From Deltaproteobacteria bacterium (lineage in GTDB: Bacteria; Myxococcota_A; JAADFL01): DNA of 51,822 bases. Below, in pieces: positions 53 to 37,318 of the stretch (position 1 is its first letter; each line of letters starts with the position of its first letter). The stretch covers positions 1 to 51,822 of the forward strand of contig JAADFL010000151.1 of assembly GCA_013152945.1 (NCBI GenBank), given 5' to 3'. The translations under genes and the position numbers were made by a program. The notes below the pieces were generated by a model, which was not told the origin of the DNA, did no database searches, and was given only the letters and a program-made list of their open reading frames with translations.

Positions 53-70
53 TGTAGACTGAAGTCTACT
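53..70. promoter_or_regulatory. Palindromic operator-like site, GTAGAC-N4-GTCTAC
   Basis: TGTAGAC (53-59), spacer TGAA, GTCTACT (64-70). The six-base arms and four-base spacer match the perfect sites at 1982-2005 and 22317-22338. It lies on the far side of the 210-244 terminator, so it probably does not serve the 272-1600 gene. Protein binding is inferred from symmetry and recurrence only. Confidence 0.5.
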
Positions 71-209
71 AGGCCGCTCAAGGCATCGGCTTGTCATAAT
101 TATTTGATATAACTATTAAAATATTAAAACACCCGTACCGGTCATTAAATTTGATGGGGATTATAGTCTACAGGTAGTGTTGCTAATTATCCCTATCAAC
201 TCTACTGGA

Positions 210-271: not shown

Positions 272-1600
272 CTATCTCTTGCGCCTAATCAGGCTGAGAC
301 CAAGAAGGAGGAGGAGTCCAAGCACAGAACCACTGCCATTTGCTGCAGAGCAACCACTGCCGAGGTCTACCGCTTCACCCTCGGCCTTGAGCACGATTCT
401 CGAGCTAGCTTTGGTTTTCTGTGGATACTTTTCATCGCCGAATACCAGCTTTGCACGAAGTTCAACTACATAGTCACCGGGAAGATCCGGGGTGATTGTG
501 ACCCGTCTATTTTTCTTGTAGTGATAGTTGAATGTTGTGGACAATGTCACAGCCCCCCTCGGATACTTGATGACCGCATGTGATCCTTCAGGTTTGCTGG
601 CAATAATCCATTCGTACTCAATTCCGGCATTCTGCCGGTTGGCCCAAATCAGGAGGGGTATATTTTTTCCTGTGCGAACGGTCCGGTCTCCTCCGGCAGA
701 GACTGCAAAAGCGCTTTCCGGATTGAGGCAGGTTTCCACGTCGGAAACGACGTAGCAGAAATTCCTGTCACACACATCACCGATGCCGTCACGATCAGCA
801 TCCTTTTGCTTCGGATTGAAAACCGATGGACAATTGTCTACAATGTCAATCATCCCGTCATTGTCCCTGTCGGCGTCACACAGATCGCCCATTCCATCGA
901 GATCCAAATCTTTTTGGTCAGGATTACTGATAAGAGGACAATTGTCAGCAAAATCTTGTACTCCATCACGATCTTTGTCTTTCAAGCAGGCATCTCCAAA
1001 ATGGCCTGGATCTGAACTGTCCTGGTTAGGATTTTTCACGAACGGACAATTATCCTGGGTATTCTCCCATCCGTCACCATCGATGTCAGGGTCACAAGCA
1101 TCGCCCACGAGGTCTCCGTCAGTATCGGCCTGGCTCGGGTTCCTGACCCTGGGGCAGTTGTCATCCTCATTAATCTTGCCGTCCCCATCGATGTCGGTAT
1201 CGCATGCATCGCCAATACCGTCGCCATCAGCGTCTTTTTGAATTTCGTTTGCGCTATTCACGCAGTTGTCACACGCATCTCCCACTCCATCACCATCCCT
1301 GTCGGCCTGGGCCCTGTTTGGAACAAACGGACAATTATCAAAGTCATCCTCGAGACCGTCATCATCATAATCATCTGCGTACTGATAAGTGTCTCCAAGA
1401 TCGGTGTCAGCAATCAATGTTGAGCCGCCTCCAGCGCCACAGCCACAACCACAACCGCACCCGCCCGGTCCACCGCCCGACTCGTTCGGTGTTCCACATA
1501 ACCCACCGGTGCATTCACCGGGAGCTTCATCCTGTGCCGATGCCCCCATGGCTACAAAGACACCTACTGCAAAAACCATCATAACCAATTGCTTTTTCAT
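272..1600 (-). CDS. Exported TSP3-repeat protein with MYXO-CTERM-like tail
   Basis: A 442-residue secreted protein. An N-terminal signal peptide ends near ASAQ and is followed by a short Cys/Gly-rich stretch with alternating GCGCG. About seven thrombospondin type 3 units (DxDxDGxxDxxDNCP type) follow; these are calcium-binding repeats whose Cys residues pair between units. Next comes a roughly 110-residue beta-rich domain resembling an Ig/PKD fold. The C-terminus has Ser-Gly-Cys, a hydrophobic helix and a final RRKR, the layout of MYXO-CTERM sorting tails, which are thought to be processed at the Cys and held on the cell surface. ATG at 1600 is chosen because AGGTAGGTGGG precedes it; a TTG 18 bases upstream lacks such a site. 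A -24/-12 promoter candidate lies about 55 bases upstream and a terminator follows. The ligand is unknown. Confidence 0.9.
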   Translation of the reverse strand: MKKQLVMMVFAVGVFVAMGASAQDEAPGECTGGLCGTPNESGGGPGGCGCGCGCGAGGGSTLIADTDLGDTYQYADDYDDDGLEDDFDNCPFVPNRAQADRDGDGVGDACDNCVNSANEIQKDADGDGIGDACDTDIDGDGKINEDDNCPRVRNPSQADTDGDLVGDACDPDIDGDGWENTQDNCPFVKNPNQDSSDPGHFGDACLKDKDRDGVQDFADNCPLISNPDQKDLDLDGMGDLCDADRDNDGMIDIVDNCPSVFNPKQKDADRDGIGDVCDRNFCYVVSDVETCLNPESAFAVSAGGDRTVRTGKNIPLLIWANRQNAGIEYEWIIASKPEGSHAVIKYPRGAVTLSTTFNYHYKKNRRVTITPDLPGDYVVELRAKLVFGDEKYPQKTKASSRIVLKAEGEAVDLGSGCSAANGSGSVLGLLLLLGLSLIRRKR

Positions 1601-1654
1601 AACCCACCTACCTTTCAAGCCATCTGGCCTTTTCTATTCTAACCTATGTAGCAT

Positions 1655-1670
1655 GCAAACCCCACACCAA
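1655..1670 (-). promoter_or_regulatory. Candidate sigma-54 (-24/-12) promoter of the TSP3 gene
   Basis: Minus-strand TTGGTGTGGGGTTTGCA has GG and GC separated by exactly ten bases and matches the consensus TGGCACG-N4-TTGC at 8 of 11 informative positions. A transcript would start near 1643, leaving about 43 bases of leader before the ATG at 1600. Palindromic sites lie 130-340 bases upstream, the usual range for enhancer-binding activators. Predicted from sequence only. Confidence 0.5.
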
Positions 1671-1869
1671 GTGTTGACTCATATACCCATATATTATTTA
1701 TTTAACGTGTTTTCAATATGTTAAGCAAGGCTGGTATAATGAATTCAACATTGATCCCACAAATAATATGTAGACTATAACCCCCAGCGGCAATTCGCCC
1801 AAAAGCACCGAAGTTGACTTTATACTTTTTAATAAATTATTTTATCTAATTATATTAAGTCAATAGCAT

Positions 1870-1891
1870 CTTGTAGACTATATGCTACAAG
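1870..1891. promoter_or_regulatory. Imperfect palindromic operator-like site
   Basis: CTTGTAG (1870-1876) and CTACAAG (1885-1891) are inverted repeats. Aligned to the perfect sites it reads TGTAGAC-TATA-TGCTACA: one arm intact, the other changed at two bases, with the same four-base spacer. It sits about 230 bases upstream of the predicted start of transcription of the TSP3 gene. Confidence 0.45.
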
Positions 1892-1981: not shown

Positions 1982-2005
1982 AAGTGTAGACTATTGTCTA
2001 CACTT
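1982..2005. promoter_or_regulatory. Perfect 24-base palindromic operator-like site
   Basis: Two ten-base arms, AAGTGTAGAC (1982-1991) and GTCTACACTT (1996-2005), flank a TATT spacer. The inner 20 bases (1984-2003) are the exact reverse complement of 22318-22337, twenty kilobases away in another intergenic region. A dimeric DNA-binding protein is the simplest explanation. The position upstream of a -24/-12 promoter suggests an enhancer site. Confidence 0.65.
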
Positions 2006-2246: not shown

Positions 2247-3917
2247 TCAAATTTCCCTTTTCAAGAATCGTTCCCTAATGGCATAGGCTACCCTCAAGCT
2301 GTTGGCCATTATGGTTGGAGTCGAAGGAACCGCCCCGGATGTAGGCATGAAACTTCCATCTGTTACATACAGATTTTTAACTTCATGGGCTTGGCAACTG
2401 GGATCAAGCACTGATTTGTCCGGGTCTTTACCAAAACGGCATGTACCCTGTTGCAAATGCATTGTCGTACTTGCCCATGTCCAGGGATAGACCTTCTTGG
2501 CAGCCGGCTTCATAGCCTTCAGGACCTCTAGTCCACGGCTTGTCATAGCCCTGTTAACATCGTCTGTGATCGGGTGGTTCTGAAGCGTAATCCTTGCAGC
2601 CGGAAAACCGTGATCATCCTTTATATAGGGGTCCAGGTCTGTATAGCAGCCTTGCCAGGGCAGATGTTCACCAAAGATTTCGAATTCAATAATCAACTCA
2701 TCCTGGAAATAACGCCTTAGCCTGTCTTTCAGCGCCTGACCCATCAGTTCCCATTTGGAATCCATTACCAATCGAATGGCAGCGTTGATAATATTGGGGT
2801 GGTGGATAAGAAAATTGTAAGTGCCACCCTTTGGAATCGCAAAACCCGCTTTTTCATTCCAGTAATCATCTTGAATCGACCTGAGCATGAAGGGCAGGTC
2901 CATGTTTTCCTTTCCAAAGGCTGCAATAAGGTCTGCCCTGTCGAAGATCGCCGTTCCTTTGCCAAATGCAGAAAATGTAAGATTTCTCCCTACCAGTCCG
3001 TTGTTGTTCGCCAAACCGTTGGGGAATCTCGCATTCCTGGATAGCAAGAGCAATCTGGCACTTTCAATTGCACTGGCTGCCACACAAACTACCCGGGCCT
3101 TTATCAAGTGAGTTTTATCATGTTCGTCGATGTATTCGACCCCCTCCACTTTGTCCAAGGCGTTGGTTATGATACGCGTTGCCCTGCTATTGGACCGAAT
3201 CTGGCAGTGTCCAGTGGCCTCGGCATCAGGTATGAAAGTAACAAGCGTGCTGGACTTCGAAGAATTCTCACACCCATAGTCTCCACACAGTCCGGCATAA
3301 TTACATGGAGGCCTTCTTCCGTATGGTCTTGATACAATGGCCCTCGGGGTGGGAAATGGGTGAAATTTCAGTTCCCTGGCGGCGACATCAAGTGATTGTG
3401 CCGCCGGGTGCGGCTGCAGCGGCGGCAGGGGAAAAGGTTTCGTCCTTGTCTCGAAAGGATTGATTCCAGCCCGCCCTGACACGCCGATCCTGGCTTCCAT
3501 CAGGTCATAGAAAGGCATAAGATCTTCAATGGTTATCGGCCAATCTTCAATATCGGAACCCTTTACCCCCCCTGTCAGGGTCGCCAGTTTCAAATCCTGT
3601 TCCTTGAGACGGTAAAAGAACCCACTCATGTGAACGGTTGCACCGCCGACACACCTGCTCGTCCATCCATCCCTTGTCCTGGTTGCCCTGGTTTGCTTTC
3701 CCCGCCTGATTGTATGTGGATCGGTCGAGATGTAAGGAACCCAGAAATCCCTCCTGCATATCTTGACTTCATCGTGCAGAAAATCACGGTTCGTATAGTA
3801 TGGACCTTTTTCAAGCACTACAACGTCGGCACCCGCTTCTGCCAGAATCGCTGCTACAGGTGCGCCGCCTGCACCGCTTCCAATCACTACTACATCAGTT
3901 TCGTCTGTTGAAGCCAT
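2247..3917 (-). CDS. GMC-family FAD oxidoreductase
   Basis: A 556-residue flavoenzyme of the glucose-methanol-choline family. The N-terminal Rossmann motif GSGAGG (residues 13-18) precedes a beta strand ending in VVLEKG, which binds the ADP part of FAD. The C-terminal GMC domain has HLQQGTCRFG, then VTDGSFMPTSGAVPSTPT, the usual active-site end of the family. Members oxidise alcohols, sugars or sugar acids; the substrate cannot be read from the sequence. The gene starts nine bases after the Tat protein, with an AGGGG ribosome site inside the gap, so the two are very probably co-translated as large and small subunits of a gluconate-2-dehydrogenase-like enzyme. No Tat signal of its own is present, so export as a complex with the Tat-bearing partner is plausible (inference). 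Confidence 0.9.
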   Translation of the reverse strand: MASTDETDVVVIGSGAGGAPVAAILAEAGADVVVLEKGPYYTNRDFLHDEVKICRRDFWVPYISTDPHTIRRGKQTRATRTRDGWTSRCVGGATVHMSGFFYRLKEQDLKLATLTGGVKGSDIEDWPITIEDLMPFYDLMEARIGVSGRAGINPFETRTKPFPLPPLQPHPAAQSLDVAARELKFHPFPTPRAIVSRPYGRRPPCNYAGLCGDYGCENSSKSSTLVTFIPDAEATGHCQIRSNSRATRIITNALDKVEGVEYIDEHDKTHLIKARVVCVAASAIESARLLLLSRNARFPNGLANNNGLVGRNLTFSAFGKGTAIFDRADLIAAFGKENMDLPFMLRSIQDDYWNEKAGFAIPKGGTYNFLIHHPNIINAAIRLVMDSKWELMGQALKDRLRRYFQDELIIEFEIFGEHLPWQGCYTDLDPYIKDDHGFPAARITLQNHPITDDVNRAMTSRGLEVLKAMKPAAKKVYPWTWASTTMHLQQGTCRFGKDPDKSVLDPSCQAHEVKNLYVTDGSFMPTSGAVPSTPTIMANSLRVAYAIRERFLKREI

Positions 3918-3926
3918 GATACACCC

Positions 3927-4535
3927 CTAGTCGTGAAATCCCTTGTCTGGGTTCAGCAAACGCCCGACTCCAACCGGATTCCACCAACGGGATTTCATAC
4001 CATCCGGTATTCCGATAAATTTCCATCCGACTCTGTCGCGGTTACCGCCGTACTTGGGATCAGAGAGATATCCCTCGATAACAAACTCCACCAATTGCTT
4101 ATAGAAAAGATAGCCATCGAATTTCTTTATTCTTATTTTTTTTCCCTGGAACATACGCAGTATTACTTCCTGCTCCCCGTGCTTCAATGTTGTGAATTTC
4201 CTCTTGTATTTCCGCTTGGCCACATTGTTCAACTGGATTGCACCAACCATTAAATACTTTCTGGTATTATCGAAAGGCTTTTGCGTCAGCCAATAATCCA
4301 TGAAGGCCGGAATACCTGCATCAATGGCGCCGGGCAAGATAACTTCCGCTGCTGCTGCAAGGATTTCCTCGATATCCGGTTCAAAGGCCTTGCCCAAAGA
4401 AAGATTATTTTCCCTCCCCGCAACCGGCACTGCCTTGGCCAAAAGAATACCACTGCCTGAAAGGACCGCGGTTTTTACAACCTGTCTCCTGGTCATCAAC
4501 AACTCTGGCTTCTTTTCCGTTCTCTTTTTTCCCAT
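3927..4535 (-). CDS. Tat-exported gluconate 2-dehydrogenase subunit 3-like protein
   Basis: A 202-residue protein with a twin-arginine signal: TRRQVVK at about residues 15-21, then a hydrophobic stretch and an AxA-like end. The mature part fits the gluconate 2-dehydrogenase subunit 3 family, with the typical end YLSDPKYGGNRDRVGWKFIG. In known complexes this small subunit escorts the FAD-containing large subunit through the Tat pathway. The start ATG at 4535 is preceded by TAGGAGGG, where TAG is also the stop of the cytochrome c gene, so the genes are tightly coupled. The subunit has no cofactor motif of its own. The heme subunit of a classic gluconate dehydrogenase could here be replaced by the upstream multiheme cytochrome (inference). 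Confidence 0.88.
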   Translation of the reverse strand: MGKKRTEKKPELLMTRRQVVKTAVLSGSGILLAKAVPVAGRENNLSLGKAFEPDIEEILAAAAEVILPGAIDAGIPAFMDYWLTQKPFDNTRKYLMVGAIQLNNVAKRKYKRKFTTLKHGEQEVILRMFQGKKIRIKKFDGYLFYKQLVEFVIEGYLSDPKYGGNRDRVGWKFIGIPDGMKSRWWNPVGVGRLLNPDKGFHD

Positions 4536-4544
4536 GTCGCCCTC

Positions 4545-5564
4545 CTAGTGGCACACAGAGCAGGAAGCTCGTCTCTTTTCCACCACGGGGCACCTGCCTT
4601 TTCCCGTTAGCGAAGGAGCGGGCGGGCCTGACGGATGACAAGATCCGCAGCTAAGCTCATGCTTGTGCTCTATTATAAAGGGACACTTGTGGCTGAATAC
4701 TCCGGATGCCTTGGAATCAGGCCCGGCGTGACATGACGCGCATGGCATATCTACGATGATCTTGGCCTTTGTACGTTTCGTACACGCCGAAGGCTCGGCA
4801 AGGGCCAGACTCTCGAGAAATACCACAAGACTTTCCATTGATTTCCTGTCGTGCCCGAGTGCCAATTTAAACGAAGGCATGCTGGAATCCGCGAAATTGG
4901 CTGTTGGATCGAGTATACTTGTCACGAGGTATTCAGGACTTTTCCTTCCGATTTTTGTAAGATCCGGGCCAAAGTCCCATGAGCCCTTTCCTTGAGTGCC
5001 TAACGGATGACAACCTGTACAACCAAGCCCCAGGTACAACCTGGCGCCCTTTACCAGTACTTCCATGCCGGGCGCATCCCCGGGGACATGGCATCTGCCA
5101 CAGCTCGCCTGAATGTGAGGCTCTCGAAGCAAAGGATCCTTTCCACCGGCCGGTCCCTTGTGTGCACCTTCAACAGTCAATGCCCTCCCGTTTCCACCAT
5201 GACACGAAGAACAGCCGAATCTCGTTGCCGGATGGTACGTAAGAAGGCCTCCTGGATGAGGCTTGAATGGATTTAACAATTTTTTTTCTGAAATATCCTT
5301 GCGTTCAATGCCGAGGTGGCAGGTGGTACAACGATCCACATTTCCATCACAGGCATGAACTTGCAATATTTGTATATTCTCACTGCCGGCCGGGTCTACA
5401 GTGGAAATGAACTCTTCTTGCTTTTGTTTCCAGTCCGGTTCAGCCTGCCTGTACATTGTCAAGCCCATAGCTGCAAACAGTAACAATATACTGGCAAACA
5501 AGGCTAATTTCAGCCTCCTCGTGTCTCTATTCCTGAAATCTTCTCTATTGGAATTAGAGGACAA
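4545..5564 (-). CDS. Membrane-anchored seven-heme cytochrome c
   Basis: A protein of about 339 residues with a short cytoplasmic N-terminus, one membrane helix (around residues 17-36 from the chosen start) and seven CXXCH heme motifs: CTTCH, CSSCH, CGRCH, CTGCH, CASCH, CGSCH and CSVCH. The last motif is the final five residues. A TTG at 5564 is taken as start because GGGAGGA stands about nine bases upstream; it overlaps the end of cytochrome b by 11 bases. An ATG at 5636 in the same frame would add 24 residues rich in Cys and lies deep inside cytochrome b. By position it replaces cytochrome c1 next to Rieske and cytochrome b genes, and it could accept electrons from the GMC enzyme or pass them onward. 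Confidence 0.85.
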   Translation of the reverse strand: MSSNSNREDFRNRDTRRLKLALFASILLLFAAMGLTMYRQAEPDWKQKQEEFISTVDPAGSENIQILQVHACDGNVDRCTTCHLGIERKDISEKKLLNPFKPHPGGLLTYHPATRFGCSSCHGGNGRALTVEGAHKGPAGGKDPLLREPHIQASCGRCHVPGDAPGMEVLVKGARLYLGLGCTGCHPLGTQGKGSWDFGPDLTKIGRKSPEYLVTSILDPTANFADSSMPSFKLALGHDRKSMESLVVFLESLALAEPSACTKRTKAKIIVDMPCASCHAGPDSKASGVFSHKCPFIIEHKHELSCGSCHPSGPPAPSLTGKGRCPVVEKRRASCSVCH

Positions 5565-6909
5565 GCCGCCATTCCTCCCAGGGCCAATAAAGCTCCCAGC
5601 CCGGTCCTCTGAACATACCGAGCACTGTAAATACAATAACAGCGACTATCAAGACTGTGGCGGAACAAAGAACAGCCGCCCTGGTAGAGCCGGTGATTAT
5701 TCCTGACAAGAAAAATCCAAGTACCGACAACGCCAACGTGGCAGTAGCCGGATTAAACAGGTCCAACTCCAGGAAAGACATAGCGCTGTTCCGGATATCC
5801 GCCTTGAGGTACAGGGCTTCTATTCCAACGAGTAATCCCGTGGCTGCCAAAAGGGTTAAAAGGACAATGATTTTTTCCGTCCTACCCCCGAACCACCGGC
5901 CGGCCATGGATCCTCCCTTATCCAGAGCAGGTACCATTGCCATGAATACCATGAGAAACAATGGGAATATCAATCCACCCACAGTTGCGGAGTAGCTGAC
6001 CATTTCCTGGAGCCAAAGAAAGTACCATGGGGTCTTCTCTGGGTTGGACGGATTGTGGAGATTTGCAGCAGGGCCCAAGGGCGCGGGTACCAAGTTGGCG
6101 ACAACCAAGATAACCGCCACGACTATGAAGAAGATGATCCCCTGCCTTGATGTCAAGTGAGGCCTGGCGGAGAGAGTATCCGATTTTTGACTCTCCCCTT
6201 GCTGGGAAGCCACCAGACCTTTATCCCTGCGGATCCTCCACAAGTGAAGCACCAACAGGATTGCCAGCAATAATGGCAAGATAGCCACATGAAGTGCATA
6301 GAACCTGGTCAGAGCCTGTTGGCCGACCTCATCTCCCCCCAAGACAAGCAATTTCAGCCCATGTCCCAGCACAGGCAGTTGATCAAACAGGTTCGTGCCT
6401 ACCCTTACGGCCCAGTAGGAAAGCTGGTCCCACGGCAACAGGTACCCGGTGAAGGCAAGACCCATTGTAATCAGAAACAAGCCCATTCCTATAATCCAGT
6501 TGAATCCCCTGCCTGAATACCCGGCGGTGAAAAGCACACGCAGGAAGTGGAGAAAGACAACCAGCACCATGGCATGACCGGCCCACCTGTGCATTGCCCG
6601 CACCACAGCACCCAAGGTGACTACGTATTCCAGGTCGTTAGTGCTGGCCAATGCCTGCTCTGTGGTCGGCACATAGTAGATCATCAACAAAACGCCGCTC
6701 AAAACCAATACAACCAACAAGGACAGCGTTATAAAACCCAGTCCCAAGGTTGTCCATGGTGACAAGGCAATCCTGCTTATCCTCGGCGGATTTGGATGTA
6801 GGAAAAAGCTCTTTTTTACGCCATGGGACGGGTCTCGCCCCGTGCCGTCCGTAAAGCCAAGACGATTCAAACGTAAGTTATGTCCGATTTGAATTAAAAA
6901 CCTGCTCAA
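5554..6909 (-). CDS. Cytochrome b of a bc-type quinol oxidoreductase
   Basis: A 451-residue integral membrane protein with eight or more helices. Heme ligands are visible as H107 and H121 in one helix (RAMHRWAGH...FLH) and H207 and H222 in another; the 15-residue step of the second pair is the b6-type spacing. TPWYFLWLQE stands in for the PEWY motif of the quinol-oxidising site, so the N-terminal (b6-like) and C-terminal (subunit IV-like) halves are fused in one chain. The start codon is a TTG with GGTGAAAG upstream, 20 bases after the Rieske gene. Together with the Rieske protein and the multiheme cytochrome it should form a complex III analogue. Confidence 0.92.
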   Translation of the reverse strand: MSRFLIQIGHNLRLNRLGFTDGTGRDPSHGVKKSFFLHPNPPRISRIALSPWTTLGLGFITLSLLVVLVLSGVLLMIYYVPTTEQALASTNDLEYVVTLGAVVRAMHRWAGHAMVLVVFLHFLRVLFTAGYSGRGFNWIIGMGLFLITMGLAFTGYLLPWDQLSYWAVRVGTNLFDQLPVLGHGLKLLVLGGDEVGQQALTRFYALHVAILPLLLAILLVLHLWRIRRDKGLVASQQGESQKSDTLSARPHLTSRQGIIFFIVVAVILVVANLVPAPLGPAANLHNPSNPEKTPWYFLWLQEMVSYSATVGGLIFPLFLMVFMAMVPALDKGGSMAGRWFGGRTEKIIVLLTLLAATGLLVGIEALYLKADIRNSAMSFLELDLFNPATATLALSVLGFFLSGIITGSTRAAVLCSATVLIVAVIVFTVLGMFRGPGWELYWPWEEWRLVL

Positions 6910-6929
6910 TAGCTTTCACCGATTTTTCA

Positions 6930-7625
6930 TTAATGATTGTCACCGTCATTATCCGATGATTCAAATTTAACTATTTCACCCTTGTCCACCCAGAGTTTAC
7001 CGTCCGCTTTCAACCATACCTTGTATTTCGGCAAATCCCTCCTTGCAGGGCCCTTCGTGACCCGGCCGGATTCATCATACCTTGCCCCATGACAAGGACA
7101 CATGAACCCTTGATCAGACTTTTGGACGATACATCCGAGGTGGGTGCAGATTGCAGAAAAGGCGACTACCCCTTTTTCTGTCCTCTTAATAAAGAGATCG
7201 CGCTCCCGCAAAAAGGTCAGCGTGTTCATCCTGAAATCACCCGGCGCTCCAATCGGAAACCTCTTGGGCTTTCCAGCCGCAACCTCTGGAACAGCCAGGG
7301 CTGAAATTCCGGCAACAGTCATGAGCCCGCAGGTGCCAAGCAAGGTCGTGCCTGCAAGGGATAGAAAATCACGCCGGTTAGTCGCTTGTTTCCCAGTGTC
7401 TTCTTTCAAAGCGCCATGATCAGGAAGTGAGATTGCGGCCCGTGCATCGTTACCTTGTGGTGTCTCCAAAGGAGATTGATCAGGCACCTGTTCTTCCTGC
7501 TGATTGGACTTTTCCAATCGAAAATCGTCTTTTTTCTTTTGAGGGAAATTCCGATCTTCGCCCTTTTTCACGACTTGTCTTTTTACAGCTTTCTTTGGCG
7601 CACTTTTCTTTTTCTTTCTTCCCAT
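6930..7625 (-). CDS. Rieske iron-sulfur protein of the bc-type complex
   Basis: A 231-residue protein. C160-T-H162-L-G-C165 and C176-P-C178-H179-G are the two Rieske boxes: C160, H162, C176 and H179 hold the 2Fe-2S cluster and C165-C178 form the disulfide. A twin-arginine signal ([10 protein letters not shown], from about residue 83) begins the membrane anchor. Unusually, about 80 residues of Lys-rich and then Gln/Pro-rich sequence precede the Tat motif and would lie in the cytoplasm. The gene sits 20 bases ahead of cytochrome b and 55 bases behind the spermidine-synthase-like gene. It transfers electrons from quinol to the c-type cytochrome. Confidence 0.93.
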
Positions 7626-7680: not shown

Positions 7681-10056
7681 TCAACGATCCAAATCTCCTA
7701 TCAAGGCGACCAAAAAATAGGCTGCGACTCCACACAACAACACGGCAGTATATCCCCATAGCATTCCGAGTAAGACAGCTGATTCCGAACCCACCACTGA
7801 AGCAAATCCATTCATGCCATAGGCCCAAGGCACCCTTTCTGGATAACTTTTTTCAATATTTGAAATGAGTATGGGGAACGTCATACCCATGAAAAACCCT
7901 ACGGGAAATATGAATGCTATTGCAATCATAATCCTGGCGATTTCAGGTAATGCCAGAGTAGCATTCACCAGGTAGGGTGCTGAAAATGCGGTCACAAGGG
8001 CCATTGAACCAGCAGCAGCAGCGGTCCATCGCGCTTTGAGCCTGCCCGAATAATTTCCTGAAACAAAACTGCCGATACCTGAACTTATCAACAGGCCTCC
8101 CAGCACGGCTGCGAACACCACCATGGGCTCGCCCAGGAAAAGTGTGAGGCGCTGGATCAACCCGACCTCGACCACCATGTATGCAAGGCCGAGCCCTGCA
8201 AAGGCCGCAAGTGTTTTCAGCCTTCTTTTACCATCCATTGCCCGTCTTCGAAACACGGCCAATGGTAGAAGAATAAGCAAGAGACCGATTGCAGTCGTTT
8301 CTAGAAGAAGCACCACGAGAGATGCCTCGGCTATGGGCGCGTCCTCCAGGGCCATTCTACCGCCATGCCCTTGTGAAAAAAGTAATGAAAGGTCTTTCAG
8401 GCCGATATCTCCCAGGGCAGTCCTCCTGTTGAAAAAAGGCTTGTCATCCGTGGCCGGACTCAACAAGACCTTGAACGGCACCTTCACCTTTGTCGGATCG
8501 TTTGCAGTAAGCAATTTACGGTAGTAACTTTTATTTTTTCCACTACCCGGAACATAGAGCGGCTCCATGCCTTGCCGTGCCAGGACTTCAAGAAAATCAC
8601 GGGACATCCCGGAACTGAAACCATCCTTGCACATGGCAAAACCGGCGTAGAAGCTTGTGTGCCTTGCAGGCCGTCTCCATGCCATCACCTTGTCCCGACA
8701 ATTCTTGATCCCGATGCGACCCAGCACACTCCGGGCTGTTACGAACAGCCTCGGGATTTGCGCCTCCGGCCTGGTTATTAGTAAGATTCCCCCGGGCTTC
8801 AGGTGATCGAGATAGCTGTTGAATGCCTCGACAGTCAATAGGTAGTTCTCGGCAAGGCTCAAAGACCCGGAGGCCATTGCAGCATTCGATATTGTGTGGG
8901 GACATTGAATCAAGTCGAATTTTTTCCTGGTTCGTTCTATGAAACTCCTTGCCTCGTCCGTGTATGCATGGACTCTTGGATCATCGTACAGTCTTCCGGT
9001 GAAATCAGACATCTTGTCCATGACTACATGATTGATGGCCGGATTGATTTCCACGGCAGTCACCGATTCGGCGCCGTTTCTAAGTGCGAGCAGCACCTCC
9101 CGGCCTCCGCCGGAGCCGACGATCAGGACCTTGGGATTCTTTTTCAGTTTCACAAAAAATGATTCGTCGTCACCCGTAGGCCCAAGGTCGGCTATAGGTG
9201 CAGTAGGATGGGCAAGCCTTGTAACAGCAGTCCCTCCATCGATTAGTATGCTCCTATGCACCCTCCTCCATTGGTCCCTAAATTCTATTACATCAATGCG
9301 GGAAAGCGTATTCCATGCAGAGTACCTGTGGAACCGTTTATCTCTAATCAGTTTTTGTACAGGCATCCCGCCGCCGGTTACCTTGTTACTGCTGATACGG
9401 ACCGGCAGAATGTTCTCTGCAAACAACGAGCTGGCTGCCAATACAACAAAGAGCCCCATGGCAAGGACTTTGTACCTGCTCCGCATATTCCAGGAGAGCA
9501 GCAGTGCGGCAATAGAAGCTAGTGCGGCAGAGGCGAAAATAGTTCCCGGCCCTCCAAGGAGAGGAAGAGCCAAAACTACAAGGATGCATCCGAACCCTGC
9601 GCCTGCCAGGTCGAAAAAATACAATTTGTGGACATTCGCTGCGTACCTGGTCAGTAGTGCTGCAACCGTCAAGCCGGAAAAGAAAAAAGGCAGGGTGACC
9701 GAAAGATATGACAAAGGCAAATAGAGCCATTGCATGGCATCTTTACCCAAAGAAAATGGTTCATATGGAATCAGGTCGAACAAGATATATCCAAGTACGT
9801 ATGAAACCGGTGTAGCCAAGGCCAACCAGGTTATCAACTTTGGGGATACTCTTTCCGCCTGTCTTCTCAGAGAAAGGACTACGCCGGCGAAACCCAGCCC
9901 GAAAAGAGCGGTGCTCAACACCATGAAGGCGAAGTGATACCAAAGTGTGACCGATAATATCCTTGTCCAGGCTATCTCGAGAGCCAAGACCGAAATCGAG
10001 AGGAAAAAAAGGCCTGATAGAGTCGTCTTATCATTCCTGCGGCCATCCGGATTCAT
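7681..10056 (-). CDS. Polytopic membrane protein fused to a spermidine synthase-like domain
   Basis: A 791-residue protein. Roughly the first 205 residues form about six membrane helices. A soluble domain follows, with LIVGSGGGREVLLAL (around residue 315), an acidic second strand ending in VEINPA, and DARVHAYTDEARSF-like features typical of spermidine synthase-type class I methyltransferase folds. The last 230 residues are again helical membrane segments. Fusions of this kind are common in environmental bacteria. Most have no proven activity, and the usual aminopropyltransferase residues cannot be confirmed by eye. The start ATG has AAAGGA upstream. It lies between the surface lipoproteins and the Rieske gene in the same orientation, so it probably belongs to the same transcript; a role in the redox complex is unproven. 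Confidence 0.85.
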   Translation of the reverse strand: MNPDGRRNDKTTLSGLFFLSISVLALEIAWTRILSVTLWYHFAFMVLSTALFGLGFAGVVLSLRRQAERVSPKLITWLALATPVSYVLGYILFDLIPYEPFSLGKDAMQWLYLPLSYLSVTLPFFFSGLTVAALLTRYAANVHKLYFFDLAGAGFGCILVVLALPLLGGPGTIFASAALASIAALLLSWNMRSRYKVLAMGLFVVLAASSLFAENILPVRISSNKVTGGGMPVQKLIRDKRFHRYSAWNTLSRIDVIEFRDQWRRVHRSILIDGGTAVTRLAHPTAPIADLGPTGDDESFFVKLKKNPKVLIVGSGGGREVLLALRNGAESVTAVEINPAINHVVMDKMSDFTGRLYDDPRVHAYTDEARSFIERTRKKFDLIQCPHTISNAAMASGSLSLAENYLLTVEAFNSYLDHLKPGGILLITRPEAQIPRLFVTARSVLGRIGIKNCRDKVMAWRRPARHTSFYAGFAMCKDGFSSGMSRDFLEVLARQGMEPLYVPGSGKNKSYYRKLLTANDPTKVKVPFKVLLSPATDDKPFFNRRTALGDIGLKDLSLLFSQGHGGRMALEDAPIAEASLVVLLLETTAIGLLLILLPLAVFRRRAMDGKRRLKTLAAFAGLGLAYMVVEVGLIQRLTLFLGEPMVVFAAVLGGLLISSGIGSFVSGNYSGRLKARWTAAAAGSMALVTAFSAPYLVNATLALPEIARIMIAIAFIFPVGFFMGMTFPILISNIEKSYPERVPWAYGMNGFASVVGSESAVLLGMLWGYTAVLLCGVAAYFLVALIGDLDR

Positions 10057-20070: not shown

Positions 20071-21921
20071 TCAACGATCCGCCGTGACACAATCTCCACC
20101 CGGAAAGCTTAGATCCAACATTGCGGGATCCTTGAAATCATCATCTTCAATGGTTATCTTGCCGTCAAAAGGCACCTTGTAATCAGGAGCTATGTATTGC
20201 ACCCTGACACAGGCGACCTTGAAGGTGCCCGTGTCCCACGGGTCATCATATGCAGCGACGTCGAACCAAATCAGGATATCATTGTATCCCATGCCATCCA
20301 TATTGTTTCTTTCCTGGGTAGTTACCAGGGATATCTCGTCCACGGTAAACTTGTAGCACTGCCTTCCATTGTTGTCTTTCTCCAAGGCCCCCATTGAATA
20401 CCAGTATCGTTTGTTGTTCCACAGTTCCGGATCTGATTGTGAAGGATTGGACCTCTCCAACAGCTCGTCAGCGTTTCGCCGTCCATCTGCATCAAGGTCG
20501 CCATCCCCATCCGGTTCGAGAGGGTTGGTATTGAATCTTACCTCGTACAAATCAGGAAATCCGTCGGCGTCCGTGTCAACCAGCTTGGGATCGGTTTTGT
20601 ACAATGCCTCCTCGCATGCGTTTAGTCCATCACCGTCACTATCCGACAGATCGTTGCAAGGAACTTCGGGCTTGTCAGGATCAGTCGGATCATAGCCTGC
20701 GGATTTCCATTTCGTTTCAATGAAATCGCTGTAACCGTCATTGTCAGTGTCCGGGTTCAGAGGATCCGTGGCCGGGTCACTCTCTTCCTCCTCCTTGTCA
20801 GGGATACCATCGCTGTCCGAGTCGGGTAAAAACTTATTAATATATGGGAATGCCGTAATATTGCTGACAATGAGATTCTTGGCAGAGTAATTGCGCTTGA
20901 TTGAAGTATAGTCGATACGAAGGAAATTGATCTCTTCACCGGAAGTGAAATCACTGAACGTGCCGTTTCCCTGCCTTGACATCTGTCTTAGCAGGGCCCT
21001 GCCCCGGTCGGGATCGAGATTATAGGCCGCCTCTGCAGCAGCGCACAGGGCAGAGGTGGGATTGCCGTTTTTATCACGGCAGTAGAGAAATGCCGTGTGC
21101 AGCCTCAAATCTCCCACCTTGAAAGCATCTTTGAGGTCCATGATATCATCCACCAAAGCAAAGATTTGGTAATCATTGTTATAGTCCACGCCACCTTCAA
21201 GCAATGGGAAATAACCCTGGCTAACCATGTTGGCGAAGTTGCCCATTTGGAAATCAGTAAGAACCCGGTCGCCCAGGGTGCACGTGACATGCAAATCTTC
21301 GTTGCAAGTCGGCGAATACCTTGGATGGTCCGGCGGCTCTGTGACACATCCGTAACAAACCGGGTCAGGGGTTCCGTCGGAAAAGAATATGATTACGTAT
21401 TTCGTCCTGGTCAACTCGGATCGGTCGGAGTTCATCATGTCCTTCAGCAGTTCCTGGTAGGCTACGCCCAATGCTCCCTGGTAATCAGTCTGTGAATCCG
21501 CCTGGAGCAGTCCGGCTGAACCGAATATGGCTTCCTTGTTTGCAACGCTTCCCGCAGGTTCGAAACCTTCGGTCAAAACGTCAACCTTGCCGTTGAACTT
21601 GATGATATCGAAATAGACCTGTGGGTTGTCCGCAAACTTGTTCACCACGTCTCTGACGGCCTGGGCCCTGTAATCCCCCTCGTCTGTCTGCTGCATGCTT
21701 CCGGAAGCATCTACGATGAACATTATCTTCACGGGAAAATCGGAATCCTGTGGAGGCTTGGAACACACTTCCCCTGAAATCGACAGCAAGTCGTCCACTT
21801 GGGAAACCTTGAACTTGGGCTTGGCTTCAACGTCAGCATCAGTACATGATGACAACATGGAGAAAAGCATTGCCAGCGCCGCTGCCATTGCGAAGTAATT
21901 GAGTTCTGCGACGCGTTTCAT
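20071..21921 (-). CDS. VWA/TSP3 lipoprotein (paralogue 1, first of the cluster)
   Basis: A 616-residue lipoprotein, the most compact of the three paralogues. Lipobox LSSC (Cys 26), then TDADV. VWA domain with FPVKIMFIVDASGSM (metal site 71-75), TSP3 repeats with DSDSDGIPD-type units (around residues 365-480) and a C-terminal beta domain (VDEISLVTTQ). GGAGGTGCCGAA precedes the ATG. The gene faces the 21922-22613 control region, with a strong -24/-12 element about 160 bases upstream. It is likely the first gene of a transcript that runs through the following lipoproteins; a 160-base gap separates it from the next start at 19908. Role inferred as metal-dependent surface binding. Confidence 0.92.
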   Translation of the reverse strand: MKRVAELNYFAMAAALAMLFSMLSSCTDADVEAKPKFKVSQVDDLLSISGEVCSKPPQDSDFPVKIMFIVDASGSMQQTDEGDYRAQAVRDVVNKFADNPQVYFDIIKFNGKVDVLTEGFEPAGSVANKEAIFGSAGLLQADSQTDYQGALGVAYQELLKDMMNSDRSELTRTKYVIIFFSDGTPDPVCYGCVTEPPDHPRYSPTCNEDLHVTCTLGDRVLTDFQMGNFANMVSQGYFPLLEGGVDYNNDYQIFALVDDIMDLKDAFKVGDLRLHTAFLYCRDKNGNPTSALCAAAEAAYNLDPDRGRALLRQMSRQGNGTFSDFTSGEEINFLRIDYTSIKRNYSAKNLIVSNITAFPYINKFLPDSDSDGIPDKEEEESDPATDPLNPDTDNDGYSDFIETKWKSAGYDPTDPDKPEVPCNDLSDSDGDGLNACEEALYKTDPKLVDTDADGFPDLYEVRFNTNPLEPDGDGDLDADGRRNADELLERSNPSQSDPELWNNKRYWYSMGALEKDNNGRQCYKFTVDEISLVTTQERNNMDGMGYNDILIWFDVAAYDDPWDTGTFKVACVRVQYIAPDYKVPFDGKITIEDDDFKDPAMLDLSFPGGDCVTADR

Positions 21922-22079
21922 TTCGGCACCTCCATTTTTTCAAGCAATCATTACTCATTCATTAGTCTATCGAACCAAGCACATAAAATCGAGCTGAACT
22001 ATGCGAGCAGCCGGATACATGCAAAATTTCTTTCAACGCTTTGTGCTTTACCATATTCATCGCAAGTATACATGTGTAC

Positions 22080-22094
22080 GCAATACTCGGGCCA
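22080..22094 (-). promoter_or_regulatory. Sigma-54 (-24/-12) promoter of the VWA cluster
   Basis: Minus-strand TGGCCCGAGTATTGC matches TGGCACG-N4-TTGC at 10 of 11 informative positions, with GG and GC ten bases apart. The transcript would begin near 22068, giving a leader of about 147 bases. The perfect palindrome lies about 250 bases upstream of that point and the half-site stem-loop about 170, the geometry expected for enhancer sites. Confidence 0.65.
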
Positions 22095-22231
22095 TAAAAA
22101 ATATTTCAAAAGCCGTGTACCCAAAAAAGAAAATCAAGCCGGCAAATCGACAACGCATTGAAACTCAAGGTTTTTTTCAGACATGCCGTGATTCTTGAAC
22201 GAACTACTGTCAAGGCTGACAATATCCCACG

Positions 22232-22257
22232 AGGAATAAAGTCTACACTTTATTCCT
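22232..22257. repeat. Ten-base inverted repeat with TCTACA loop
   Basis: AGGAATAAAG (22232-22241) pairs with CTTTATTCCT (22248-22257) around TCTACA. The centre reads GTCTACA, a half-site of the palindrome found at 22317-22338. The hairpin lacks a T-tract. It may be an operator with one recognised half, or a structured leader element of an unseen transcript. Confidence 0.4.
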
Positions 22258-22316: not shown

Positions 22317-22338
22317 TGTGTAGACAATAGTCTACACA
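22317..22338. promoter_or_regulatory. Perfect palindromic operator-like site
   Basis: TGTGTAGAC (22317-22325), spacer AATA, GTCTACACA (22330-22338). The 20 bases 22318-22337 are identical, in reverse complement, to 1984-2003. It stands upstream of the -24/-12 element of the VWA cluster and about 200 bases upstream of the plus-strand promoter at 22542, so either or both could be controlled. Confidence 0.65.
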
Positions 22339-26487: not shown

Positions 26488-27921
26488 TTATTTCTTGTCT
26501 TTTGGAGAAGAGCCTCCCTTTGGCCTGCTTCCGACTCCAGAAATGCCGGACACCCCCGTGCCCCTTCGTGAAGGCCGGCCCAAACCGTGCTTTTCCAAAA
26601 GATTGTATAGATGTTTCCTGTCTATGCCTGCTGTTCTTGCAGCACCTGCAATGCCGCCGGAGGAACGTAGCATTAATCTTTTGACGTACTCACGCTCGAA
26701 TACATCCAGGAGCTTTTCCTTTGCCTCCTTGAAAGGCATTGAATAATCCGGCACCAGGGATCCTGTTGGATGATCCTGCCTGACGCCCAACACACCGGGA
26801 GGACCGCCGGTCAGTCCATCTTCATCCAGGGCCAGGCTTCTCTCCACTGCATTTCGAAGTTCTCGAACATTACCCGGCCATGAATGGTTGAGCCAACGCT
26901 CTCTCACGGCTGGAGCAAGCTTTTCGAACTGTCCCGGCTTCCCTGCAAAACGATCGAACAACAACGGGATATCTTCGGGTCTTTCCCGCAATGGCGGCAT
27001 CCTGATGATTACAACCGACAATCGATAATAGAGATCTTCCCTGAACCTGCCGGAAGCCACTTCCAGGGCCAAATCCTTTTTGCTTGCAGCCACGACCCTT
27101 GCATCGAACTTGACAGGTTGATTCGATCCCAGCCTCACGAATACCCTCTCTTCAAATGCACGAAGCAATTTCGGCTGGAGTTCCAAGGGCAGATCGTCGA
27201 GTTCGTCTATGAACAGGGTGCCTCCTGTAGATGATTCTATGGCACCAACCCGGGAGCTTGACGCACCGGTGAATGCACCTTTGACATGGCCGAACAACTC
27301 GCTCTCGATGAGAGACTTTGCCACTGCGCCGCAATCGACCACGACGAGAGGTCCCTTCTCACGCTTACTGAACTCGTGCAAGGCATGGACCGCAGCTCCC
27401 TTGCCCGTTCCGGTCTCCCCCATAAGCAACACCGTTGCCTCTGTCGGGGCCACCTTTTCCAGCAAGGCGAATACCTCACGTATTGCCACCGACCTGCCGA
27501 TCATGCCCCCGAAAGATTCGCGTTCGGAAGGCGTTATGTGAACCGGATCATACTCGGTGCGAAACCTGAATACTACTTCCCCGGCCTTGATAACCGCACC
27601 AGGGCGTAAATAGGCCTCCCTGACAGGTGCGCCATCAAGTTCCGTACCGTTCGTACTTCCGAGGTCTTTGATCAGGTACCTTCCTCCCTCGTTCACTATC
27701 TCGAAGTGCTGCCTGCTTACAGTGACGTCCGGTATGGTAACGTCACAGTCCGGACTCTTTCCGATGACCACTCTGCTTTTGCTTATCGGGTGTATGCGGC
27801 CGGGGTCAGGGCCTTCAGTTTCCACCAGTGTGCATCGTTGGAGGCTCAAGCCTCCATATCCATCGGCCCTTATGGCCCTCGTAGCCAAGCCGGTCTGGGT
27901 TTCGTCATCCCTAATCGACAT
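26488..27921 (-). CDS. FHA-domain sigma-54 activator (enhancer-binding protein)
   Basis: A 477-residue regulator. An FHA domain (about residues 40-118) has the core VVIGKSPDCDVTIPD...VSRQHFEI and LIKDLGSTNGT, which recognises phosphothreonine. The sigma-54 AAA+ domain (about 138-370) has Walker A GETGTGKG, the sigma-54-contacting loop GAFTGA and Walker B GGTLFIDELDD. A Fis-type helix-turn-helix (GGIAGAARTAGIDRKHLYNLLEKHGL region, about 418-447) binds DNA. There is no receiver domain, so control is probably by a Ser/Thr kinase, as known for FHA-type activators of myxobacteria. No such kinase is in the window. It is divergent from pyruvate kinase and is the only local candidate to bind the GTAGAC palindromes. 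Confidence 0.93.
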   Translation of the reverse strand: MSIRDDETQTGLATRAIRADGYGGLSLQRCTLVETEGPDPGRIHPISKSRVVIGKSPDCDVTIPDVTVSRQHFEIVNEGGRYLIKDLGSTNGTELDGAPVREAYLRPGAVIKAGEVVFRFRTEYDPVHITPSERESFGGMIGRSVAIREVFALLEKVAPTEATVLLMGETGTGKGAAVHALHEFSKREKGPLVVVDCGAVAKSLIESELFGHVKGAFTGASSSRVGAIESSTGGTLFIDELDDLPLELQPKLLRAFEERVFVRLGSNQPVKFDARVVAASKKDLALEVASGRFREDLYYRLSVVIIRMPPLRERPEDIPLLFDRFAGKPGQFEKLAPAVRERWLNHSWPGNVRELRNAVERSLALDEDGLTGGPPGVLGVRQDHPTGSLVPDYSMPFKEAKEKLLDVFEREYVKRLMLRSSGGIAGAARTAGIDRKHLYNLLEKHGLGRPSRRGTGVSGISGVGSRPKGGSSPKDKK

Positions 27922-29533: not shown

Positions 29534-30823
29534 TCAGTTTCGGTTGCGAACAGTCACTTTCATTACTGAAGACGGCTCCCTCATGAGTGCAACCATTTTC
29601 CGATCAACCTGTGCCGCGGTCATTTCGGCTTCCACGCCCAGGGTTTTCCTGCAATTGAACCTGCTCCTGCGAAATACAATGGACTTGTTGCTGGAAAATC
29701 TCGGATTCCTTGTTGCCCTGAATACAGCAGTCATGGAATCGACCTGTAAAACCACTTCAATCTCGTCGGACAAGATCGAAAAATCCAAGTCTCCAATCGA
29801 TGCTGAAACACCGAGAACACAGGTCTCCCTGGGGGTAAGAATTTCTTCCGCCTTGAATTCCATGGTTTTTTCATGAGTTGCCCTGATTTTCTCGTGTCCC
29901 CTGCATACAAAGCTGACATGGGCTTTCTGTCTTTTTCCACTCGTTTCAACGCCTTGCTTTTCTTGTTCACCTGCTTCAAGCAAGAGCTTGTAGGCCCGGC
30001 TTTTCGAAAAACCGGATTTAGCCGCAAGGGCCTTGGCAACCCCTGACATAGACATGCCCGATTGTCTCATTTTCTCCAGATCGACACTAAAATCCTTTGG
30101 AATTGCAATTGGATTATCGGCGGCCGAAATACTTTCGGATTTCGTCTCCACCACCACGACACACTCTCCTCTTGGTTCTTCGGTAAGCATGGCTATTACT
30201 TCGGGCAATCTTCCCCGCATGATCTCCTCGTGAGTCTTTGTGAGTTCTCTTGCAATCATTACTTGCACTTCTCCCAACACATGAAAGATATCTTCAAGCA
30301 AGCTTCGAATTCTCCTTGGCGACTCGTACATGACCAAGGGTTTGTTAAGGGATGCGCTTACTTCTATTTCCTGTCTGCGCTTCTTCCTGCTTCTTGGCAG
30401 AAACCCGATGAAAACATAACCCTTTCCGGCCAAACCGGACACAGAGATGGCCGCAACTGCCGCACACGGCCCAGGCACGGGCACGGTCCTGAATCCGGCG
30501 TCTGCAACAGCCTTGACCACCTTACCGCCGGGGTCGGAAATACCCGGAGTCCCGGCATCTGTCATAAGGGCAATGTCCTTGCCCTTTCCAAGGTAATCCA
30601 ATATTTTTGGAATCCTGCGTTCCTGGTTGTACGAATGACAAGACATGACAGGTTTCTTTATTTGGTTGCGTGACATCAGACGCCGTGCCGTCCTTGTGTC
30701 TTCGGCAGCCACAATGTCCACGGACCCAATGACGTCGAGTGCCCTTTTCGAAATGTCTTCATCATTGCCTATAGGCGTTGCAACCACGAACAATCGGCCG
30801 CAAAGGCCTGGCCTTGATCCGGA
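29534..30823 (-). CDS. rsmI: RsmI-type 16S rRNA C1402 2'-O-methyltransferase with C-terminal DUF371 domain
   Basis: A protein of about 429 residues, against about 280 for ordinary RsmI. Residues 1-230 are the tetrapyrrole-methylase-like catalytic part: LFVVATPIGN, AAEDTRTARRL, ALMTDAGTPGISDPG and PVPGPCAA are RsmI signatures for methylating C1402 in helix 44. A helix-turn-helix segment (about 258-285) is the usual RsmI tail. Residues about 303-426 are extra and read like DUF371, best known from archaea: CRGHEKIRATHEKTMEF, LTPRETCVLGVSA and a late NCRKTLGVEA. ATG at 30823 has GGAGG ten bases upstream and lies five bases after the stop of the KamB/NpmA-like gene, so the two are translationally coupled. 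The function of the DUF371 part is unknown. Confidence 0.9.
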   Translation of the reverse strand, partial: SGSRPGLCGRLFVVATPIGNDEDISKRALDVIGSVDIVAAEDTRTARRLMSRNQIKKPVMSCHSYNQERRIPKILDYLGKGKDIALMTDAGTPGISDPGGKVVKAVADAGFRTVPVPGPCAAVAAISVSGLAGKGYVFIGFLPRSRKKRRQEIEVSASLNKPLVMYESPRRIRSLLEDIFHVLGEVQVMIARELTKTHEEIMRGRLPEVIAMLTEEPRGECVVVVETKSESISAADNPIAIPKDFSVDLEKMRQSGMSMSGVAKALAAKSGFSKSRAYKLLLEAGEQEKQGVETSGKRQKAHVSFVCRGHEKIRATHEKTMEFKAEEILTPRETCVLGVSASIGDLDFSILSDEIEVVLQVDSMTAVFRATRNPRFSSNKSIVFRRSRFNCRKTLGVEAEMTAAQVDRKMVALMREPSSVMKVTVRNRN

Positions 30824-30828
30824 CATAT

Positions 30829-31527
30829 CTATGGTTCCTCCGTTTCCTGCTTGATTCCCTGAATATCGAATGTTTCCCTGCGGCTGGCCCTGGATAGTCT
30901 TTTGCCCCATGTCGATACCAACGGCGGATCTCCCGGCGGCAATCTCCTGCAACCGATGGTTCGTATTCCAACAAGATCCAAGGCCGGGACCAGGCGGCTT
31001 TCCAGGTAGGCTTGGTCCAGATTTGGAAGGCCGAGTCTTTTTGCCAGGCCGTCCATCTCGAAAACATGGGTGTTTATCAGTAATCTTATTTCACAGCCCG
31101 GCCTTGCAAGTCTCGAAATATTCGCAAGCGCTTCATGGCTTGCATTTGCAATCGCCCTTAAAAGAGCGGCCCATGGGTACAAGACTGTGATCATGTCAGC
31201 TTGTCCGGACAGGCAGGATGGAGGGTGTTCGAGTTCTCCCCGAACCATGATAAGGTTGTCGACACCTCCCCTGGACATCTTTCTCGATGCCCTGAATGCT
31301 GTTTTTTTCATTACCTCGAAATTTGGATCCATCCCGACACAAAAAGTATCCCGGTGCTCTCTGGCCCATCGCAGGGGAAACTTGCCGTCACCTGTTCCAA
31401 TATCGATCAGCACTCTTTTGTACCGGCTTTTCAATGTTTCGAACTCCAGGCTGGAAAGGCAATGCATCCCTGTTCCGATTCCGGTCACAATATCAAGCCC
31501 GCACCCAATCTTTTCCATGAACCACAT
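30829..31527 (-). CDS. KamB/NpmA-like 16S rRNA (adenine1408-N1)-methyltransferase
   Basis: A 232-residue class I methyltransferase. IDIGTGDGKFP (44-49 core) binds S-adenosylmethionine. MSRGGVDNLIMV, TVLYPWAALL (Pro-Trp 118-119), LGLPNL and STWGKRL (Trp 207) fit the A1408 methyltransferase family in order and spacing. The two Trp residues correspond to those that grip the flipped adenine in NpmA. These enzymes give aminoglycoside resistance in producers and pathogens, and chromosomal homologues of unknown role exist. The start is uncertain: ATG at 31527 and an in-frame ATG at 31518 both have weak ribosome sites. Coupled to rsmI, whose product methylates a nucleotide of the same helix. Activity is predicted, not shown. 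Confidence 0.85.
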   Translation of the reverse strand: MWFMEKIGCGLDIVTGIGTGMHCLSSLEFETLKSRYKRVLIDIGTGDGKFPLRWAREHRDTFCVGMDPNFEVMKKTAFRASRKMSRGGVDNLIMVRGELEHPPSCLSGQADMITVLYPWAALLRAIANASHEALANISRLARPGCEIRLLINTHVFEMDGLAKRLGLPNLDQAYLESRLVPALDLVGIRTIGCRRLPPGDPPLVSTWGKRLSRASRRETFDIQGIKQETEEP

Positions 31528-37101: not shown

Positions 37102-37140
37102 ACTTCCAATCCCCCTTAATCGCCCCGACAGCTAATATAT

Positions 37141-37154
37141 GCATATTCCATGCC
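37141..37154 (-). promoter_or_regulatory. Possible -24/-12 promoter of the histidine kinase gene
   Basis: On the minus strand GGCATGGAATATGC has GG and GC ten bases apart; with the preceding base it agrees with TGGCACG-N4-TTGC at 8 of 11 positions. A start near 37129 would leave a leader of about 28 bases. No GTAGAC palindrome is nearby. Low confidence. Confidence 0.3.
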
Positions 37155-37318
37155 GTATCCTGCGTACAGAACTCCATGCAAATACAATTAAATTTCGACA
37201 CCTGTTATTTTTGACTGAGGTGCCCCAAAACCCAGCCTGTACCAGCCAAAAATTTATCCGGCGGTAGAATAAAGGGCCACCCGGGGAAACAGAGCAGTTT
37301 CAGGTAACCGAATCTGCC

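Follow-up and report, generated by a model that had tools for sequence, protein, structure and literature searches.

The perfect palindrome P (GTAGAC-N4-GTCTAC) occurs in the host genome in small arrays that, judging by their sequence and surroundings, most likely constitute the UAS (enhancer) of one Fis-type sigma-54 activator (EBP), which would control genes for two exported proteins (one TSP3, one VWA/TSP3) and for a Ser/Thr kinase and a receiver-domain protein, together with one off-contig gene. The motif, which an earlier sequence-only reading did not recognise, can now be assigned to the enhancer-type sites of sigma-54 activators. The regulon is very probably real, specific and small, with a mechanism of a well-known sort. 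What was an unrecognised palindrome would thereby define a small sigma-54 regulon in a lineage without close relatives among the genomes examined. The regulon would connect a kinase and a receiver protein with two exported, so far uncharacterised TSP3/VWA proteins, and TGTAGAC-N4-GTCTACA, which is found again in other genomes, would be an additional sequence-specific EBP site.

Genome-wide occurrence of the palindrome

We scanned the whole host genome (4.84 Mb, 218 contigs); the window, that is, the complete stretch of 51,822 nucleotides analysed here, is one entire contig (G000:C151). Five exact GTAGAC-N4-GTCTAC matches were found (base chance, ~0.3; 4.84 Mb / 4^12), at positions 54, 1986 and 22320 of the window and 8986 and 9098 of contig C182, and all are intergenic. 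The sequence-only reading had placed its sites exclusively in non-coding DNA and had named equal frequency in coding DNA as grounds for abandoning the motif; the scan bears out the former, and the latter did not occur, given that all five exact sites are intergenic. With the 14-base form, the genome contained five sites at ≤1 mismatch (reversed control, 0) and 105 at ≤3 mismatches (control, 128), so weak sites form no large population around the exact ones, and the strong form alone is meaningful. Relaxed matching (≤3 mismatches) within the window likewise gave no excess (13 sites versus 10.5 expected from shuffles). A genome scan with the half-site form TGTAGACTATAAYCCCC (≤3 mismatches) returned the four array regions described below, two background matches and nothing more.

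Every site listed in the sequence-only reading is present at its coordinates. Positions 1984–2003 are the exact reverse complement of 22318–22337, a perfect GTAGAC-N4-GTCTAC lies at 54–69, and the fourth site, reported at 1870–1891 with one arm kept, is an imperfect copy at 1872–1889 with two mismatches. The half-sites proposed at 165–172, 1769–1776, 2114–2119 and 22241–22247 are all present, but that at 2114 is unsupported as an array member. A literature search for the exact motif returned nothing relevant, and neither PMC4641369 nor PMC3333781 has GTAGAC or GTCTAC in its main text; the motif may already be known under some other name.

Anatomy of the arrays

The sites are grouped in four arrays (A–D) of 2–3 sites each, spaced 89–113 bp apart (A, 102 bp; B, 103 and 113 bp; C, 89 bp; D, 112 and 102 bp), and every array includes one degenerate half-site H (of the TGTAGACTATAAYCCCC type), in which one arm is intact:

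53..70, no strand: palindrome P of array A, TGTAGACTGAAGTCTACT, with exact GTAGAC-N4-GTCTAC
156..172, minus strand: degenerate half-site H of array A, TGTAGACTATAATCCCC, 102 bp from P
1769..1785, plus strand: half-site H of array B, TGTAGACTATAACCCCC
1872..1889: imperfect palindrome P' of array B, TGTAGACTATATGCTACA, two mismatches, 103 bp from H and 113 bp from P
1984..2003, no strand: perfect palindrome P of array B, GTGTAGACTATTGTCTACAC
22231..22247, minus strand: half-site H of array C, TGTAGACTTTATTCCTC
22318..22337, no strand: perfect palindrome P of array C, GTGTAGACAATAGTCTACAC
Contig C182: array D, with P at 8985, P at 9097 and H at 9199

The half-sites of arrays A and B (at 165 and 1769) are an identical 17-mer, TGTAGACTATAAYCCCC. 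P reads TGT-AGACNNNNGTCT-ACA, a TGT-N12-ACA dyad that falls within the TGT-N9-12-ACA class of EBP enhancers. The array-bearing intergenic regions are 33–38% GC in a context of 51% GC. Weak similarity of the inter-site DNA between A and B and between B and D (0.5–2.5% level) is unconvincing because of the AT-rich composition. A second perfect palindrome, AGGAATAAAGT-CTAC-ACTTTATTCCT, at 22232–22257 overlaps H of array C. The four-base cores are inverted matches in two pairs, 1984–2003 with 22318–22337 (TATT/AATA) and, in array D, 8986–9001 with 9098–9113 (TGGT/ACCA). We considered and rejected H sites as promoter-like elements or RNA hairpins (TATAAT beside TGTAGAC), as they show no consistent orientation with respect to the genes.

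Chance resemblance among AT-rich intergenic DNA, which would suit the chance-level number of relaxed matches, is contradicted by the genome scan, with its excess of exact 12-base sites confined to intergenic DNA, and also by the matching spacings between arrays and the co-occurrence of half-sites; we regard it as extremely improbable. Scarcely more credible is that the palindromes serve site-specific recombination and bracket short invertible promoters (phase variation). In favour of this reading, the inverse cores in array D enclose 94 AT-rich bases, the sites of B and C, 20 kb apart, are inverted copies of each other, and an AT-rich inner segment adjoins exported-protein genes. However, cores mismatch within arrays A, B and C, where identical cores would be expected, the best promoters are not within the flanked segments (array D included) and no recombinase was present among the flanking genes examined. 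Most known P cores, moreover, read NNNT in one orientation, so that core matches are likelier to arise by chance.

Predicted sigma-54 promoters at the arrays

Promoters were sought with a sigma-54 -24/-12 matrix that approximates the published consensus (background at ≥12 bits, 0.07 per kb). All three arrays with a visible target gene (B, C and D) have a gene-directed sigma-54 promoter, and array D has two, divergent ones. The genes and predicted promoters are as follows:

272..1618, minus strand: putative array B target, exported protein with seven TSP3 repeats (Pfam TSP_3, 2.8e-55; start more likely at 1600)
1654..1669, minus strand: predicted sigma-54 promoter of the TSP3 gene, TGGTGTGGGGTTTGCA, 12.5 bits, top score in the intergenic region, aimed at 272–1600
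20071..21921, minus strand: putative array C target, exported VWA and TSP3 protein (Pfam VWA_2, 1.7e-10)
22079..22094, minus strand: predicted sigma-54 promoter of the VWA/TSP3 gene, TGGCCCGAGTATTGCG, 13.0 bits
22614..24173, plus strand: divergent Asp/Thr-rich lipoprotein gene, flanking array C opposite the VWA/TSP3 gene, best sigma-54 score 7.0 bits
C182 8839–8854, minus strand: predicted sigma-54 promoter of the kinase gene, CGGCACACATTTTGCT, 14.4 bits
C182 9291–9306, plus strand: predicted sigma-54 promoter of the receiver-protein gene, TGGCGTAATATTTGCT, 13.7 bits

Across the window and C182, scores of ≥12 bits were obtained for four of five P-bearing upstream regions versus none of 12 others (Fisher p = 0.002; rank test p = 0.0003), p-values that are somewhat optimistic because, of the four promoters, two had already been noticed by eye when the matrix was made; the promoters of array C and of the kinase gene were found blind. 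Predicted transcription starts are at ~1643 (TSP3) and ~22068 (VWA), and arrays B, C and D place 2–3 sites at roughly -110 to -380. The lipoprotein gene is probably outside the target set of array C, as it lacks a strong sigma-54 promoter. No promoter is visible for array A, which is cut by the contig end; the target gene of this array would be beyond the left contig end, and no contig overlapping that end of the window was found. An intergenic two-mismatch site on contig C205, which has no sigma-54 promoter, is probably due to chance. A sigma-54-like site (11.4 bits) without P lies at 37140–37155 of the window, upstream of a hybrid histidine kinase gene.

The suggestion of the sequence-only reading that the sites cluster upstream of exported TSP3/VWA genes applies to arrays B and C, but array D, flanked by the genes for a tandem Ser/Thr kinase and for a receiver-domain protein, would serve those two instead. 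No conservation of an array upstream of these genes was detected at the phylum level in a scan of 377 genomes, the nearest of which share with the host only its phylum. Elsewhere in the window we observed a cluster on the minus strand (2247–7625) encoding a Rieske-like protein, cytochrome b, multihaem cytochrome c, a gluconate-2-dehydrogenase subunit-3-like protein and a GMC oxidoreductase; a tetrapyrrole methylase domain fused with DUF371 (29534–30952); and a 3,646-aa protein with 34 putative MopE-type metal-binding repeats (39067–50007).

Restriction to four intergenic regions and the co-occurring sigma-54 promoters support the dedicated dimeric regulator that had been postulated earlier. 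This activator, presumably a single EBP for all four arrays, would bind as dimers at 2–3 sites ~90–113 bp apart and 110–380 bp from the transcription start; the intervening AT-rich DNA would loop back, allowing the AAA+ ring to open a sigma-54 RNA polymerase poised at the -24/-12 promoter.

The palindrome in other genomes

Outside the host, the 377-genome phylum scan found exact P in G010, G174 and the g27 genus, and a scan of the collection for P together with the half-site gave seven matches. Exact P lies beside a strong sigma-54 promoter in three other genomes, in two of which (L083 and G010) an EBP gene is adjacent. In L083, from the Deltaproteobacteria MAG AS06rmzACSIP_61 (G377), the promoter TGGCACGCGAGTTGCG (15.7 bits) is 82 bp from P, P is ~117 bp upstream of the predicted start, a PAS-AAA-Fis EBP gene adjoins, and just one further P-like site exists in this MAG, 70 bp from P. 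Directly after the EBP gene, L083 also carries a 34-bp perfect palindrome, GTATACGAAAGTCTACATGTAGACTTTCGTATAC (1198–1231), which holds two overlapping P-like sites and is either a terminator or a tandem operator. Among 79 relatives of this MAG, one more genome (G406) has exact P, ~180 bp from a sigma-54 promoter (TGGCGCGCTGCTTGCT, 16.2 bits) that precedes a membrane-protein gene and then a CoA-transferase gene. In G010, which belongs to the host's phylum, a 15.2-bit promoter is next to P, and the operon encodes an AAA-HisKA kinase and a REC-AAA-Fis EBP; here the palindrome is placed at the predicted start site rather than upstream. The main text of PMC4641369 describes a few EBP sites downstream of the promoter, which could cover this placement. 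Sites of ≥15 bits occur at ~0.03 per kb in the pooled loci, and the pairing of P with a sigma-54 promoter is seen in three of roughly eleven unrelated clades with P (~0.1 expected by our own estimate).

Most exact P copies in other organisms (g27 genomes, G174 and L077–L082) have no sigma-54 promoter, and six of the seven collection matches (Cyanobacteria, Bacilli, Intrasporangiaceae, Chloroflexota, Rhodospirillales and Mycobacterium) lack a convincing sigma-54 context; such unpaired occurrences are either a chance-level number or sites of other regulators. In the g27 genus (G063, G193 and G029), conserved copies of P precede paralogous genes for Asp-rich lipoproteins that have no sigma-54 promoter (L039 6643, L040 7770, L041 1324 and L042 7597), and each P is followed ~10 bp later by GTGTAG[CA]GAAAGGTCGATTGC. 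No homology was found between these lipoproteins and that of the window, and their P may belong to a different regulator sharing the same dyad.

The g27 loci bear on whether P is instead the operator of a sigma-70-type dimeric regulator, such as a member of the CRP/FNR family or a TetR/GntR-type repressor. Conservation at the lipoprotein genes of these three genomes (four loci) begins exactly at P, in the absence of a sigma-54 promoter; the spacing fits CRP/FNR TAGAC-N4-GTCTA-like sites; a perfect dyad with half-site centres 10 bp apart suits many helix-turn-helix dimers; and H sites have a TATAAT-like sequence beside TGTAGAC. An operator 110–380 bp upstream, accompanied by a sigma-54 promoter at every testable host array, would nevertheless be unusual, and we consider this explanation unlikely for the host. 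NtcA, NifA, BlaI, LexA and the lux box, whose sites or spacing differ, were set aside as explanations of P.

Candidate activators in the host

Consistent with a sigma-54 enhancer, the host encodes RpoN and 24 sigma-54 activators. One of these cognate candidates, singled out by position alone, lies in the window:

26488..27921, minus strand: FHA - AAA+ - Fis-type sigma-54 activator (Pfam Sigma54_activat, 3.3e-61; FHA, 3.6e-18)

For all 24, there is neither a P near the EBP gene nor an EBP gene adjoining an array. Helix-turn-helix similarity to the EBPs of L083 and of G010 picks different host proteins; those closest to the L083 PAS-EBP are L071 and L073 (only 37% identity). Shared sites and a search for an orthologue of the kinase likewise singled out none of the 24. 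The FHA-EBP is attractive because one array would control a Ser/Thr kinase, but it stays a guess because the genome has at least three further FHA-EBPs (L058, L065 and L069). A more far-reaching and rather improbable idea is that one EBP, possibly this one, links the Ser/Thr kinase to expression of the exported TSP3/VWA proteins. With the kinase gene itself under the same enhancer, this would create a feedback loop in which phospho-Thr signalling passes through sigma-54 to the cell surface.

Comparison with known EBP sites

In Desulfovibrio vulgaris, according to the main text of PMC4641369, three groups of EBP sites have TGT and ACA half-sites separated by 9, 11 or 12 bp, and the UASs are at least ~100 bp upstream of tGGcacg/tTGCt promoters. 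The host sites resemble these in the TGT-N12-ACA form of P and in their distance upstream (~100 bp or more) but differ in that the GTAGAC motif does not appear in that main text and in that a Ser/Thr kinase and exported TSP3/VWA proteins are the putative targets here. The EBP sites of Clostridiales (NifA/FhlA-like class) are inverted TGT/ACA repeats with a 10–12-bp spacer, mostly 100–250 bp upstream and often multiple, and some of the EBPs are unclustered with their targets (PMC6615313). The host shares with this class the TGT/ACA dyad, several upstream sites and EBP genes away from the arrays, whereas the inner GAC-N4-GTC is unmentioned in the text of PMC6615313 and the phylum differs. L083, whose neighbouring target is a small membrane protein unlike the TSP3/VWA proteins of the host, shares with it the identical palindrome, a sigma-54 promoter and tandem sites (70 bp apart in L083).
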